From positions 682,001 through 746,000 of the forward strand of contig NZ_CP121194.1 in NCBI RefSeq assembly GCF_039993895.1: a stretch of 64,000 bases of DNA. The letters are read 5' to 3'. This document shows positions 38,409 through 43,233 of this stretch, piece by piece (within the stretch, counting starts at the first letter, position 1; each line of letters begins with the position of its first letter). Both the position numbers and the translations under genes were made by a program. Below the pieces are notes generated by a model. The model searched no databases, was not told the origin of the DNA, and was given only the letters and a program-made list of their open reading frames with translations. The stretch is from Edaphobacter paludis (GTDB taxonomy: Bacteria > Acidobacteriota > Terriglobia > Terriglobales > Acidobacteriaceae).

Positions 38409-39098
38409 ATGCGTCTTACATCCATGAATCGCATTGCCCTCGTCGCTGCCAGCCTGTGTGTTTCCCTTTCGCTCTCCGCGCCCGTGTTTGCGCAATATTC
38501 TGCGCCACCAAACACCGGGACGCCCTTCAAAGATACTTCGATGCTTAAGCCGCCTGCCGGAGCGCGGGTCGCGATTATCGAGTTCGAAGACCTGGAGTGC
38601 CCCGCCTGTTCCCACGCGTTCCCAATCACGCGCGGTGCCGCCGAGCACTACAAGATTCCGCTGGTACACCATGATTTTCCGCTGAAGATGCATATCTGGA
38701 GCCTGGATGCGGCGATCACAGCGCGCTATATGCAGGACAAGATCTCTCCGCAGGCGGCTGAGGATTATCGCCGGGCAGTCTTCGCGAATCAGAATTCGAT
38801 CGCCTCGAAGGAAGACCTGGAGAACTTTACACGGCACTACTTCCAGACGCATGGCCGCGAGATGCCCTTCGTGGTCGATCCGACAGGCCAATTCGCCCGT
38901 GAGGTCCATGCGGATTACGAGCTTGGCGAGCGTGTCGGCCTGACGCAGACGCCTACGATCTTCGTGGTCACGCCCAAGCATTGGACGCAGGTCACTGATG
39001 TCAATCAGCTTTATCAGACCATCGATACGGCTTTGGCTGAGACTCCCGCAACGACGGTACGCAGCAACCTGCGTCACGCGTCGAAACCACAGCGATAG
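38409..39098 (+). CDS. DsbA-like thioredoxin-fold protein
   Basis: A 229-residue exported protein. A signal peptide (about residues 6-28, ending PVFA) precedes a DsbA-like domain with the active-site CPAC in FEDLECPACSHAF. The cis-proline loop is QTPTIFV. A helical insertion (about 95-150) matches the DsbA/BdbD family. It should form or shuffle disulfides or reduce substrates in the periplasm. It is divergent from the TolC gene and ends in a strong bidirectional terminator. Confidence 0.9.
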   Translation: MRLTSMNRIALVAASLCVSLSLSAPVFAQYSAPPNTGTPFKDTSMLKPPAGARVAIIEFEDLECPACSHAFPITRGAAEHYKIPLVHHDFPLKMHIWSLDAAITARYMQDKISPQAAEDYRRAVFANQNSIASKEDLENFTRHYFQTHGREMPFVVDPTGQFAREVHADYELGERVGLTQTPTIFVVTPKHWTQVTDVNQLYQTIDTALAETPATTVRSNLRHASKPQR

Positions 39099-39190: not shown

Positions 39191-40249
39191 TTAGCGGATC
39201 TGGACAAGCTCCGGATCGGCTTTGTGTCCTGCACCGCCAGGAGTGATGGTGGTTTTCTGCGGGGCGCGCCAGTGGTCGATGTAGCTGACCTGATGCACGC
39301 AACTGATGGTGCAGTTAGGGGAGCAGCTCTTCTCGGTGAGAAACTCGCGCTTGACGTCGGCGGTCTGGTAACCAGCTAACGGGACACCCGGGTAGCCGCG
39401 CTGCTGGCTGCAATAGTGCACCAGGCCGAACTCGCAGATATACAGGTAGCGGCTTCCGGCACGGCAACGCCAGTCATTCGTTTTGCCGTTGGCGATTGCC
39501 TCCTGAAAGTGGTTGAAACGCGAGTAGCTGCGGCGGGTAAGTTTACGAACCTTGTCCCAGACGGTGCGTTCGGCTTCGCCCAGCGGCTTCAACTGCCCGC
39601 TGCCATCGTGGATGATGCCGATGGTGGAACTGAATCCCAGCCCCAGCGCCCGTTCGCTTACGGTCAGCGCATCGTTCGGGTTGGCGATGCCGCCGCCGAC
39701 GACGGAGTTGATGTTGACGTGAAAGTCGGCGTGCTCGGCGAGCATCTGGAGCTTCTTGTCGAGCACCTTCAGGCTCTTTTTGGAGACGGCATCCGGCATC
39801 ACATTGTCGATGGAGATCTGCATGTGGTCGAGGCCGGCCTTGTTCAGGCGCTCGATGCGGTCGGGCATCAGCAGATAGCCGTTGGTGATCATTCCGGCGA
39901 TGGCGCCGGTCTTACGGATGCGCGCGATGATCTGGTCGAGCTCGGGGTGCAGCAGCGGCTCTCCGCCGGAGATGGTGATGACGGAGGTGCCCAACCGGCC
40001 AAGGTGGTCGATGCGGCGCAGCATCTCGTCGAGCGGCACGGGGTCGGAGACATCATCGAACTCGTTGCAGTAGGTGCAGGCCAGATTGCAGCGGCGCATC
40101 GGCACGATATGCGCCATGTACGGGTGTCCGGTCGAAGCCAGTGCCGAGCCGATTGAGCCCAGCTCACGCATCTTGCGCGTGATGGCCTTCCATCGCCGCT
40201 TTGCAGTCATGGGACGGCGGCCAGTTCCTGAGGTAGAGGGAGATTCCAT
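39191..40249 (-). CDS. Radical SAM protein with C-terminal cysteine cluster
   Basis: A 352-residue radical SAM enzyme. The [4Fe-4S]-binding CNLACTYC lies near residues 54-61, and the SAM-binding glycine motif is ISGGEPLL. The C-terminal third has further cysteines (WRCRAG, YICEF, YCSQQRG, CSPNCTISCVH) spaced like a SPASM-type extra iron-sulfur cluster. Such enzymes modify peptides or build cofactors or hopanoid-like lipids. No precursor peptide gene is apparent nearby. It has its own terminator downstream, and the PDZ gene lies 45 bases upstream on the same strand. The substrate is unknown. Confidence 0.88.
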   Translation of the reverse strand: MESPSTSGTGRRPMTAKRRWKAITRKMRELGSIGSALASTGHPYMAHIVPMRRCNLACTYCNEFDDVSDPVPLDEMLRRIDHLGRLGTSVITISGGEPLLHPELDQIIARIRKTGAIAGMITNGYLLMPDRIERLNKAGLDHMQISIDNVMPDAVSKKSLKVLDKKLQMLAEHADFHVNINSVVGGGIANPNDALTVSERALGLGFSSTIGIIHDGSGQLKPLGEAERTVWDKVRKLTRRSYSRFNHFQEAIANGKTNDWRCRAGSRYLYICEFGLVHYCSQQRGYPGVPLAGYQTADVKREFLTEKSCSPNCTISCVHQVSYIDHWRAPQKTTITPGGAGHKADPELVQIR

Positions 40250-40294: not shown

Positions 40295-41284
40295 CTACAG
40301 CTCTGCGACCTGATTGTGGTCTGCGCAAGCAAACGGCCACACTACGCTGGAGCGTTTCTTGCTGTCCGGAGTGAGAGTCATGGTCTGCTCGTGGCGGTCG
40401 CGCAACACCAGTAAGACCACCGGCTTGCCCCGGTTTTGGTGCATGGTCTTTGACCACTCGTTTCCGGTCGTCACTGGCACCTGGTTTACCTGCATGACGA
40501 CGTCGCCGGCGCGCAGGCCCGCATCCTCTGCCGGACTATTGGCCTCAACGCTTCTCACCAGTAACCCGGCATTACCTTCCACACCGAAGAACTCCGCCAG
40601 CTGCGGGCCCATGACCTCAAGCTGCGCTCCGGTGAATGAGGCGTTCAGGACCGTCGTTGCGCCGAGAAAATCCCGATGCGCTTTCGCTCCCTTGCCGACG
40701 GAAGTATCGGAGTGGAAAAAGCCGTTCCCCACCGGGGGTACAGGCCCATTATCAGGACCGGGGTCGGGCACCACGAGGTGCTGCTCCCATGCCCGGCGCT
40801 CGACCTCCTGCCGGTCGGCGAGCTGTGTCGTCAGCGTATGCTGCTGACCGTCCCGGATGATCACAAAGGTGACCGATCGGCCCGCGGGAGTCTCGCGAAG
40901 TAACTGGCGGAGGTGCTCTCGCCCCTGAATTTGTACACCGTTCATCTGCAGGATTACGTCGTGCTTCTGGAGCCCCATCTTCCCCGCCGGACCGTCATGG
41001 TCTACATGGATCACCTCGGCGCCGTTGGTGTCGTTCAACTTCAGGGGACCCACCTGGTCCTGGGTGACATTGCGAATATCGACGCCAAGATATCCCTGGG
41101 TCATGTGGGGTGCTGTGCCGGAACGGGCGGCTCCGTGAATCTTTGCGGAGAGAGGGAGGGCAACGGTCATGGCAACGGCGGGGCGGCAGAGGCCTATCGC
41201 CGCCAAGCCTAGCGGCAGCACCAGTGGAAGTACCAGCGCAGCGGCTTGCGGTAGTGCATAGTGCTTCATCTTCATGGGTCTCAT
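40295..41284 (-). CDS. Double-PDZ exported protein
   Basis: A 329-residue protein with an N-terminal signal or anchor segment (about 14-38) and two PDZ domains: about 63-160 (QGYLGVDIRN, HVDHDGPAGKMGLQKHDVIL) and about 215-310 (LEVMGPQLAEFFGVEGNAGLLV, SPAEDAGLRAGDVV). No protease triad is present, unlike DegP/DegS. It starts 3 bases after the stop of the anti-sigma/HEAT gene and is the third gene of the sigma-factor operon. It may bind misfolded outer-membrane proteins or recruit a protease to the anti-sigma factor, by analogy with DegS/RseP systems. Confidence 0.88.
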   Translation of the reverse strand: MRPMKMKHYALPQAAALVLPLVLPLGLAAIGLCRPAVAMTVALPLSAKIHGAARSGTAPHMTQGYLGVDIRNVTQDQVGPLKLNDTNGAEVIHVDHDGPAGKMGLQKHDVILQMNGVQIQGREHLRQLLRETPAGRSVTFVIIRDGQQHTLTTQLADRQEVERRAWEQHLVVPDPGPDNGPVPPVGNGFFHSDTSVGKGAKAHRDFLGATTVLNASFTGAQLEVMGPQLAEFFGVEGNAGLLVRSVEANSPAEDAGLRAGDVVMQVNQVPVTTGNEWSKTMHQNRGKPVVLLVLRDRHEQTMTLTPDSKKRSSVVWPFACADHNQVAEL

Positions 41285-41287
41285 TGC

Positions 41288-42250
41288 CTACTGAATGTCC
41301 GCGGCATCCTGCAAGGCCTGATAGGAAGCAGTTCGGATGTAGGGATTCTCATCCTGGGTCGAGACCGTCCGCAGCACCTCGCGTACGCTCGAGTCCGCCT
41401 GTACCGGCTCCAACATGCCAATTGCCGTCGTCCGTATCTTGGCATCGGAGTCATGCATCAGAGCCTCCAGCACGCCATCGCGGACCCGCTGATCTTGTCC
41501 AATGTAGTGTTGCAGTCCTTCCAGCGCCTTCATCCGAACACTGGCATTCTTGTCGTAGCGCAGTGAGACCAGCAGCGCACTGCGAATGTCCTGGCCATCG
41601 TTTTCGCCCGTGCAGGCGTGGCCTGCCTTGCACTCATGCGCGAGCAGGGAGACGGAGTCGGCGCGAACCCCGTTGGTTGCCGCCGCATTCGTGCCTGCCA
41701 GCAGCAGCTGGCGAATCTCCGGCGAGTCCAGCGAACCTTCCATCGTCTCGGGAACCAGCTTGTTGTATCTGACCTGCACCAGCTCCGAGTTCGGCGTTTG
41801 GACGATCCCCGTCACGTTCGCAATCGTGGCCTGCGTGGGGTTGCTCAGGGTCACCGTGCTTTTGGGCTTGGGCGCGTGCGCCACTTCATAGCGATAGGTA
41901 AAGTTCCCTGCGAGAAAACCTACACCCAATAGCAGAGTCGCCAGCGCGGGTGCGCTTTGAAGATGGCCCATCCATGCAATCAGGCCGCGGCGAAACTGGG
42001 TGAAGATGCCATGCGGAGGGATCGCGTCCAGCTCTTCGTCCAGCCTGACTCTCGCCTGTGCCAGCAGGTTGGGAGAAGGCTCGACTACAGGGAGCAGCGC
42101 GAGATGCTCATCCAATTCACTAATTGCGTCCAGTTCGCTGCGACAGTCCTCGCATCCGTCGAGATGCTGCTCCAGCGGGATCGCGTATTCATCCGGCAAC
42201 TCGCCATAACTTGCTAGAAGGATGTTCTCTTTTGCGGTTTCGCACTTCAT
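41288..42250 (-). CDS. Zinc-finger anti-sigma factor with HEAT repeats
   Basis: A 320-residue protein. The N-terminal ZAS-type zinc finger has Cys3 and the HLDGCEDC motif (HxxxCxxC, about residues 29-36), the mark of zf-HC2 anti-sigma factors. A single membrane helix follows (about 98-118, LATLLLGVGFLAGNFTYRYE). The periplasmic part ends with HEAT-like repeats (about 220-318; DIRSALLVSLRYDKNASVRM, RVRDGVLEALMHDSDAKIRT). It should hold the sigma factor encoded 82 bases upstream at the membrane. The HEAT domain may receive the signal, perhaps by contact with the downstream PDZ protein. Confidence 0.85.
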   Translation of the reverse strand: MKCETAKENILLASYGELPDEYAIPLEQHLDGCEDCRSELDAISELDEHLALLPVVEPSPNLLAQARVRLDEELDAIPPHGIFTQFRRGLIAWMGHLQSAPALATLLLGVGFLAGNFTYRYEVAHAPKPKSTVTLSNPTQATIANVTGIVQTPNSELVQVRYNKLVPETMEGSLDSPEIRQLLLAGTNAAATNGVRADSVSLLAHECKAGHACTGENDGQDIRSALLVSLRYDKNASVRMKALEGLQHYIGQDQRVRDGVLEALMHDSDAKIRTTAIGMLEPVQADSSVREVLRTVSTQDENPYIRTASYQALQDAADIQ

Positions 42251-42331
42251 CGCCCTACCTCAACCAGCCTCAGAAATTTATTACTGCCAGCGGGTCTGTC
42301 ATGTCTGCCCGTCTTTTTATTCATTTGCTGT

Positions 42332-43087
42332 CTACCGCACACCGGCGAGGTTCGCGCGAAGCTTGCGAGTGGCCCGGAACAGCGTGTTCTTTGCCGTCTC
42401 TTCGGTGGTGCTCAACATCTCGCCAATCGTCCGTAGCTTCAGTCCCTGGTAGTGCTTCAGCTCAAATACAGTGCGTTCGCGGGGCGTCAGCTTATCCAGC
42501 GCCTCGCTGATCCTCAGGCTCATCACCTTCCGGTCAAGCTCCCGTGCGGGGTTCGCCATGGAACGGTCGTCAGTGATGTTCGCCATCAGGTCCATCTCGC
42601 CGCCGCTCGAATCGAGCACGGTTGCCGGATCTTCCCGGCGGCTCTTTCGCCTGCGTAACTGATCCAGGCAAAGGTTCGTGACAATACGGTAAAGCCACGT
42701 ATAGAACGAGCACTCGAATCGGAAGTTTCCCAGGTGGCGGTATGCCTTGATAAAGGCCTCCTGGTGAACATCCTGCGCATCCTGCTCATTGCCAAGCATA
42801 TGCAGCGCCAGCCGAAGCACAGACTGGTCATAGCGGCGTACCAGCGCGTCGAAGGCGGTCCGCTGACCTCGCTGGGCCTCACGGATCAACTCGTCGTCTT
42901 CAATGCGCTGCTGAGCGCGAGCCTCGATCTGCGCCTGCGTCAGCTTGCCACCATTTCTGGTGCCGGATTGTGTGACCGCTTTTGCCATGCCTGGCAATGA
43001 TTCTACCGCTGCGGCATCACGCAATCCCAAGGCGAACGGACTTGGCCGCCGCCCAACTGGATTTACCCCAATTGCTTCAACGCTCAT
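42332..43087 (-). CDS. ECF-type RNA polymerase sigma factor
   Basis: A 251-residue sigma-70 family protein of the ECF/RpoE-like group. Region 2 (about 78-155) has FDALVRRYDQSVLRLALHML, DAQDVHQEAFIKAYRHLGNF and WLYRIVTNLCLDQLRRR. Region 4 (about 195-248) has LDKLTPRERTVFELKHYQGL and STTEETAKNTLFRATRKLR. An unusual N-terminal extension of about 65 residues precedes region 2. It heads an operon with the zinc-finger/HEAT anti-sigma gene and the double-PDZ gene, which suggests an envelope-stress response. Confidence 0.94.
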   Translation of the reverse strand: MSVEAIGVNPVGRRPSPFALGLRDAAAVESLPGMAKAVTQSGTRNGGKLTQAQIEARAQQRIEDDELIREAQRGQRTAFDALVRRYDQSVLRLALHMLGNEQDAQDVHQEAFIKAYRHLGNFRFECSFYTWLYRIVTNLCLDQLRRRKSRREDPATVLDSSGGEMDLMANITDDRSMANPARELDRKVMSLRISEALDKLTPRERTVFELKHYQGLKLRTIGEMLSTTEETAKNTLFRATRKLRANLAGVR

Positions 43088-43233
43088 TTGTCTGACTCCG
43101 GAGTCAGGAAATCGAATTCACTTCAATAGACCGGTTGCCGAACCAAAAGGTAAGCAGGGCACAATTTTAAATAGAAAAATATCCATCTGAAGGGCATCGA
43201 CCGACGTACCGGCCCATCCAGTAAACTCACAAA

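Follow-up and report, generated by a model that had tools for sequence, protein, structure and literature searches.

In the RpoE-RseA-RseB system of Escherichia coli, which works with DegS and RseP, an extracytoplasmic function (ECF) sigma factor is paired with a single-pass anti-sigma factor that has a cytosolic helical domain and a periplasmic arm, and the autoregulated operon carries an additional gene (described in part in PMC8103513). The class I zinc-binding anti-sigma factors (ASDI), such as RsiW, have an Hx3Cx2C motif within N-terminal helices and one membrane helix. In the Lia and PSP envelope-stress neighbourhoods, a toastrack gene lies beside a regulator (PMC11237479); the passages of that paper that bear on this describe the contexts DUF2089, LiaI-LiaF and PspC, mention an operonically linked sigma factor in one toastrack context, and argue that toastrack is intracellular. 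HtrA/DegP proteases carry tandem PDZ domains. Here we describe a locus of Edaphobacter paludis that resembles each of these systems in part. The genome is a single contig of 4.04 Mb (NZ_CP121194.1, assembly GCF_039993895.1), and the window that we analyzed is a stretch of 64,000 nucleotides from it (positions 682,001 to 746,000). The locus consists of three genes on the reverse strand, for a sigma factor, a zinc-finger anti-sigma factor with a HEAT-repeat arm, and a double-PDZ protein. Positions are those of the window unless they carry the prefix C1.

We propose that this locus is an autoregulated switch formed by an ECF sigma factor and a membrane-bound anti-sigma factor, and we put the probability of this reading at roughly 0.7, judging from sequence. 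In other relatives the same sigma and anti-sigma genes are accompanied by one for a toastrack (DUF4097) protein, and the E. paludis operon appears, from comparison of gene orders, to be a reduced form that has lost it.

The three genes and their promoter

The sigma factor gene (42332..43087, 251 amino acids) encodes regions 2 and 4 of a sigma factor: Pfam finds Sigma70_r2 at residues 82-149 (8.3e-20) and Sigma70_r4_2 at residues 191-243 (4.3e-12), and NCBIfam's TIGR02937 scores 119.9 bits against a cut-off of 42.9. Neither database has a match for region 3, so by its domains this is an ECF sigma factor. The start codon is backed by a ribosome-binding site, a palindrome (see below), and the promoter, which lie at similar distances in relatives. 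The original prediction gave the protein an extra N-terminal segment of about 65 residues. There is such an extension (42908..43087, about 60 residues), and its length is slightly smaller, at about 57-62 residues when compared to RpoE-type models and to the conserved core. Most of it is variable, and about 35 residues that adjoin region 2, around V[EQ]S...MAK, are conserved (by eye).

The anti-sigma factor gene (41288..42250, 320 amino acids) encodes a zinc-finger domain, a single membrane helix, and a HEAT arm. The zinc-finger part (42140..42250) has the form C3...H29-x3-C33-x2-C36 and matches zf-HC2 at residues 3-37 (7.4e-5; 23.2 bits against a cut-off of 22.2). These four residues are invariant in 23 aligned sequences, E. 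paludis included, and the structure model predicts helices at residues 3-14, 20-32, 34-51, and 60-75. With Hx3Cx2C inside N-terminal helices, the domain is, by sequence and model, of the class I zinc-binding kind. The membrane helix (residues 101-124; 41879..41950) is predicted at very low model confidence, with a predicted local distance difference test score (pLDDT) of about 36-40, and is also favored by hydropathy. The HEAT-repeat arm (residues 177-314; 41309..41722), which would be periplasmic, has a HEAT_2 match at residues 226-314 (3.1e-11) and a pLDDT of 82-88 for residues 221-310 and 58-75 for residues 177-220. A Foldseek search with the model returned generic HEAT/ARM-type proteins, with none at E ≤ 0.001. 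The architecture that had been predicted from the DNA alone, a HxxxCxxC finger joined to one helix and HEAT repeats, is borne out by the Pfam matches, the invariant residues, and the hydropathy.

The double-PDZ protein (40295..41284, 329 amino acids) starts, as judged by eye, like an exported protein with a signal sequence, and contains two PDZ stretches: domain 1 (40820..41095), in which the YLGV loop is present, and domain 2, whose core is at 40400..40558. Pfam finds no protease domain, and NCBIfam's HtrA and DegS models align to the PDZ part only. The trypsin-like protease domain of HtrA and DegS proteins was thus not detected, as had been foreseen. The gene starts 3 bases after the anti-sigma stop codon (41285-41287), again as predicted. 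The structure predicted for this protein from its single sequence was uninformative (mean pLDDT 35). Downstream of the PDZ gene by 45 bases is a gene for a Radical-SAM protein (39191-40249, reverse strand), which is found in 22/35 same-genus loci (many of these stretches end nearby) but not in any of 9 loci from other families (L032-L040).

Upstream of the sigma gene is an ECF-type promoter, GCTTAC-N17-GGTCTA (43127..43155, reverse strand). We searched relatives for GCT[TC]AC-like boxes (regular expression GCTnAC) followed after 14-19 bases by GTC[TC]A. Among the 37 of 42 genus-level loci with enough upstream sequence to be scored, 31 have this promoter (35 with a looser -35 box). It is also present in 8/17 of the other toastrack-less loci of the family (looser, 9), in 7/7 toastrack-bearing loci of the family, in 7/8 loci of family f27, and in 3/9 other loci of the same class (looser, 4; 9 of 10 could be scored). 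The reversed pattern was not found in any group. Some of the misses are mis-cut regions; in L057, for example, the promoter is visible in the sequence. Our first regular expression, centered on ACCTTT, was largely genus-specific, and was given up for the wider core GCT[TC]AC. The operon has the bipartite promoter of an ECF system upstream of its own sigma gene, and because this promoter is conserved there, the operon is very likely autoregulated in the families that share it.

Gene order and the toastrack gene

The anti-sigma factor has a match in 49/61 genomes (E. paludis included) and in 36/37 genomes of the genus; the sole genus genome that lacks one (G034) is 84% complete. Named relatives with the protein include an Edaphobacter, a Granulicella, Terriglobus roseus, and Acidobacteriaceae (7 loci). 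Across the phylum, with at most five candidates scored per genome, the anti-sigma profile A1 matched 228/396 genomes at 1e-8, many of them by the zinc-finger half alone. By a hand count, 73/396 genomes have a match of at least 79.9 bits, and these mostly span the finger and the HEAT arm.

To describe gene order, the open reading frames of each neighbourhood were scored with profiles for the sigma factor, the anti-sigma factor, toastrack, and PDZ. The tree and the counts leave out L001, L002, L028, L044 (whose gene contains a run of N), L047-L054, L117 and L118 (from genomes already represented by L016 and L018), and every locus with an anti-sigma score below 80 bits. In the 103 neighbourhoods that were kept, which are sequences and not independent events, the order is sigma, anti-sigma, PDZ in 58, and a toastrack gene lies between the anti-sigma and PDZ genes in 19. 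Another 25 have toastrack with no PDZ gene seen (23 as sigma, anti-sigma, toastrack, and 2 blurred by overlapping reading frames), although some of these are near contig ends: in L078, the toastrack reading frame stops 124 bases from one. The remaining neighbourhood (L033) is truncated where its contig stops. Since the order is conserved in 58 rows, and in 19 more with toastrack inserted, chance is excluded. The pairing of this sigma factor with a HEAT-armed anti-sigma factor is well supported by the domains and by the conserved order. The trio, whose conservation in Acidobacteria had been named as a check, is conserved, but as such it was seen only within a sub-clade of the window's family and in one species of another family (L085). 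Other relatives pair the same sigma factor and HEAT anti-sigma factor with toastrack, with PDZ present or absent.

The middle gene of the relatives is, by profile comparison, toastrack (DUF4097). Among six of its proteins that were tested with the Pfam model, two were above the cut-off, two were below it, and two had no match; a profile built from four Pfam-recognized DUF4097 members recovers the other 48 at E ≤ 1.2e-11. At first sighting, among the matches listed, the middle gene in other families looked beta-helix-like. The four toastrack proteins that we inspected by eye (L032, L034, L036, and L037) have signal-like N-termini. E. paludis retains two DUF4097 genes elsewhere in its genome. 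About 15 kb before the window, a separate toastrack gene, L053 (C1:665953-666897, reverse strand), encodes a membrane protein of several helices that ends in a DUF4097 domain, beside another membrane protein.

A quick tree of the sigma core and the anti-sigma factor (midpoint-rooted, with several long branches) places the 57 toastrack-less rows of the family, E. paludis included, in one clade (100 by the Shimodaira-Hasegawa-like approximate likelihood ratio test, as for the values that follow). Its sister is a toastrack-bearing row of the same family, L074 (87), and six more toastrack-bearing rows of the family are adjacent. L085, from another family, is a separate loss of toastrack, with the four-gene L034 as its sister (100). 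A single set of 79 rows (93) holds all 77 that bear PDZ. The simplest reading of this tree is that sigma, anti-sigma, and toastrack came first, that PDZ was gained once, and that toastrack was lost at least twice.

Two changes in the anti-sigma factor accompany the loss of toastrack in the 57-row clade, in which the C...Hx3Cx2C motif is kept in 57/57 rows and hydropathy favors the membrane helix in 56/57. The C-terminal tail has a fixed length, with Leu at -8 (57/57), five variable positions, and Ile at -2 (49/57); the last residue is Gln in 56/57 and Glu once, and it is Asp in 7/7 toastrack-bearing members of the family. In E. paludis the terminal Ile-Gln is encoded at 41291..41296. The second change is a pair of periplasmic cysteines, spaced as C-x5-C on a loop that joins HEAT helices; the pair is present in 56/57 rows of the clade, 0/7 toastrack-bearing rows of the family, 0/13 other PDZ-bearing rows, and 1/26 rows without PDZ. 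In E. paludis this clade-specific loop (41612..41635) contains C207-x5-C213 (E-C-K-A-G-H-A-C). Four residues past the first cysteine there is a His in 49/56; the cysteines are more constant than this His. In the PDZ protein, the loop of domain 2 is LG-type in outgroups and changed across the family. Because the toastrack-bearing members already have this change, it is no marker of toastrack loss. The YLG of domain 1 is kept in the family rows displayed, except for one with FLG.

Mechanism, candidate targets, and alternatives

Sequestration of the sigma factor by the finger domain is established for this class of anti-sigma factor. By its domains, the cytosolic zinc finger would retain the sigma factor at the membrane, and the HEAT arm would offer a sensing or docking surface on the other side. 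In relatives, the arm's operon partner would be an exported toastrack protein, which the double-PDZ protein joined in part of the tree. The clade of E. paludis has lost the toastrack gene, and its HEAT arm carries the cysteine pair and the fixed tail. A change in the envelope would then shift partner binding and the anti-sigma factor would lose its hold; the simplest route to this would be cleavage in steps, of the kind that RseA undergoes. This is the least certain part of the scheme. Given the conserved promoter, the freed sigma factor would transcribe its own operon and yield more sigma factor, anti-sigma factor, and PDZ protein, so the PDZ protein would be a product of the switch and possibly also a partner in it.

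One scenario for the input to the arm is a swap of sensors: the HEAT anti-sigma factor would first have docked an exported toastrack protein. Once that gene was lost, the arm would have acquired its disulfide loop and its tail of fixed length and taken the PDZ protein as its new partner, and a PDZ/HEAT pair would now read the envelope without a protease from the operon. We consider this scenario, taken whole, rather unlikely. A role for the PDZ protein as a sensor or partner has nearly even odds. Because the operon is very likely autoregulated, the PDZ protein is as likely to be an output or feedback part as to read the envelope together with the HEAT arm in the place of a DegS-type protease, which was the original prediction. 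Several results weigh against the proposed switch. The changes in the clade all fall on a single branch; they may coincide by chance and do not amount to a statistical association. L085 lost toastrack without gaining the cysteine pair. The last residue of the anti-sigma factor varies in the 13 PDZ-bearing rows of other families (Arg in 6, Tyr in 3, Gln in 3, and His in 1), and to our knowledge a terminal Gln is no usual ligand of PDZ domains. The anti-sigma model is moderate overall (mean pLDDT 63). The promoter pattern was found in 0/18 loci of other classes, and further copies in the genome are few, as described below.

The PDZ protein might instead be an output only, such as an envelope chaperone or scaffold, with the HEAT arm sensing by other means and Ile-Gln capping the last HEAT helix. 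This is a tentative but serious alternative. It fits the position of the PDZ gene behind an autoregulatory promoter, the rows that combine the sigma factor and the HEAT anti-sigma factor with toastrack and no visible PDZ gene, the altered loop of PDZ domain 2, and the unusual and elsewhere variable terminal residue. On the other hand, the constancy of the tail's length, Leu -8, and Gln -1 in the clade suggests selection on a free C-terminus, and the 26 rows without PDZ have no such fixed ending (3.0 bits at -1). The anti-sigma factor could also be a periplasmic thiol/disulfide sensor, with this input replacing toastrack. The distribution of the pair (0/20 PDZ-bearing rows outside the clade) favors this, as does a nearby gene (38409-39098, forward strand) for a Thioredoxin_4/DSBA thioredoxin-fold protein with a signal-like N-terminus. 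But the cysteines may do no more than form a structural disulfide within an inserted loop, or, given the His, they may bind a metal. They were gained on one branch only, and we consider a thiol sensor improbable.

The locus could also be a general envelope-stress system like sigma-E, whose targets would extend to htrA, hsp20-clpB, and exbB-exbD. In the E. paludis genome, ACYTTT-N11-14-SGTCTAW has 5 matches, against 2 for the reversed pattern: the operon itself, htrA, a usp-like gene (with the site over the start codon), hsp20, and exbB. Upstream of htrA (Do protease; L123, C1:1373920-1373946, reverse strand), an ECF-type motif AC.TT-N-GTC[TC]A is present in 22 of the 29 usable genus loci (29 of 30; 16 by a strict pattern), as compared to 0/29 for the reversed motif and a background of 0.0027 per region. 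This looked strong at first, and was weakened by a paired comparison with the sigma operon and by the -35 box. The htrA site of E. paludis lacks the GCT of the -35 box, and five genomes with CGTCCA at the sigma operon (G307, G262, G177, G299, and G083) retain GCGTCTAA at htrA, which may mean that a different ECF sigma factor reads htrA. Several more genera of the family also have the GCGTCTAA box in front of htrA, and a matrix trained on the sigma promoters (26/36 by a stricter regular expression) scores the htrA sites weakly. We take the htrA motif as weak evidence for a regulon.

The other candidates are hardly conserved. The hsp20 site (L191, C1:3904286, reverse strand) is 51 nt before hsp20, which is followed by a clpB-like gene; only 2 of the 19 usable loci (of 20) have it, namely E. 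paludis and a 41%-identical homolog in G012. The exbB site (L192, C1:3953140, reverse strand) precedes an exbB-like gene by 91 nt, with an exbD-like gene next in line, and is found in 2/30, in E. paludis and its closest relative G001. We rejected both as targets. A whole-genome scan with TNACCTTN{12,15}GTCTA gave 4 matches against 16 for the reversed pattern. With GCT[TC]AC, 15-18 bases, and GTC[TC]A, 1.26 Mb of the genome gave 6 matches against 8 reversed. The operon's own promoter is the only clear one of these 6; another, at genome position 3893690, is about 63 nt before the possible start of an exported protein, and by eye the other four have no credible downstream gene. As few further copies of the sigma promoter were found, we consider this alternative, and with it a general envelope-stress regulon, unlikely. 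A site of the form TAACCTTC-N-GTCTA lies 35 nt before the start of a protein with a signal-like N-terminus (L124, C1:2584437, forward strand).

Between the promoter and the sigma gene is a perfect 16-bp palindrome, CTGACTCCGGAGTCAG (43092..43107), that overlaps the Shine-Dalgarno sequence (ribosome-binding site) of the sigma gene. The E. paludis genome has one perfect copy and four further sites with 2 mismatches. The element is present in 45/58 clade loci, mostly with its center 30-35 bases from the start of GTCTA; 49/58 had 6 of 8 pairs, and we subtracted L021, L066, L069, and L070, which have another element. In an alignment of 44 loci (without L062, which is almost identical to L060 and L061), 97.7% of cells pair, sliding the partner abolishes pairing, and one sequence is double-changed. 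As evidence for an RNA hairpin, pairing (67/500 shuffles scored as high) and covariation (57/500) were no better than in shuffles, fold stability was ordinary (z = +1.08), and an Rfam search of the region had no match. The palindrome may be an RNA hairpin or, equally, a DNA operator.

Comparison with described systems

The operon resembles RpoE-RseA in outline, but by domain content it is a different system: neither the anti-sigma factor nor its partner matches RseA or RseB domains in Pfam or NCBIfam up to E = 1. It has a HEAT arm and a zinc-finger anti-sigma factor, with PDZ and/or toastrack in the place of RseB, and there is no protease gene among its three or four genes. Unlike RsiW and other class I anti-sigma factors, this one has a long HEAT arm outside the membrane; the passages of PMC7406223 that were covered do not mention HEAT repeats or Acidobacteria. 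The tandem PDZ domains are closest in sequence to those of DegP-type proteases, and the protease domain is absent here. As compared to the toastrack contexts of PMC11237479, the relatives' toastrack proteins have signal-like N-termini (the four seen by eye) and lie next to a HEAT anti-sigma factor; the main text of that paper mentions neither anti-sigma factors nor Acidobacteria. In the portions of the literature that we searched, including PMC3174227, we found no description of HEAT, toastrack, and PDZ in combination, although the published ECF classification may list it.

Acidobacteria are abundant soil bacteria whose signalling has been little studied. By the features that we tested, the E. 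paludis operon is a member of the ECF and zinc-finger anti-sigma kind, and an anti-sigma factor whose HEAT arm is linked to toastrack and PDZ proteins would read the envelope in a distinct way. The natural series from sigma-anti-toastrack, through sigma-anti-toastrack-PDZ, to sigma-anti-PDZ would make a change of partner in a stress sensor testable in evolution.

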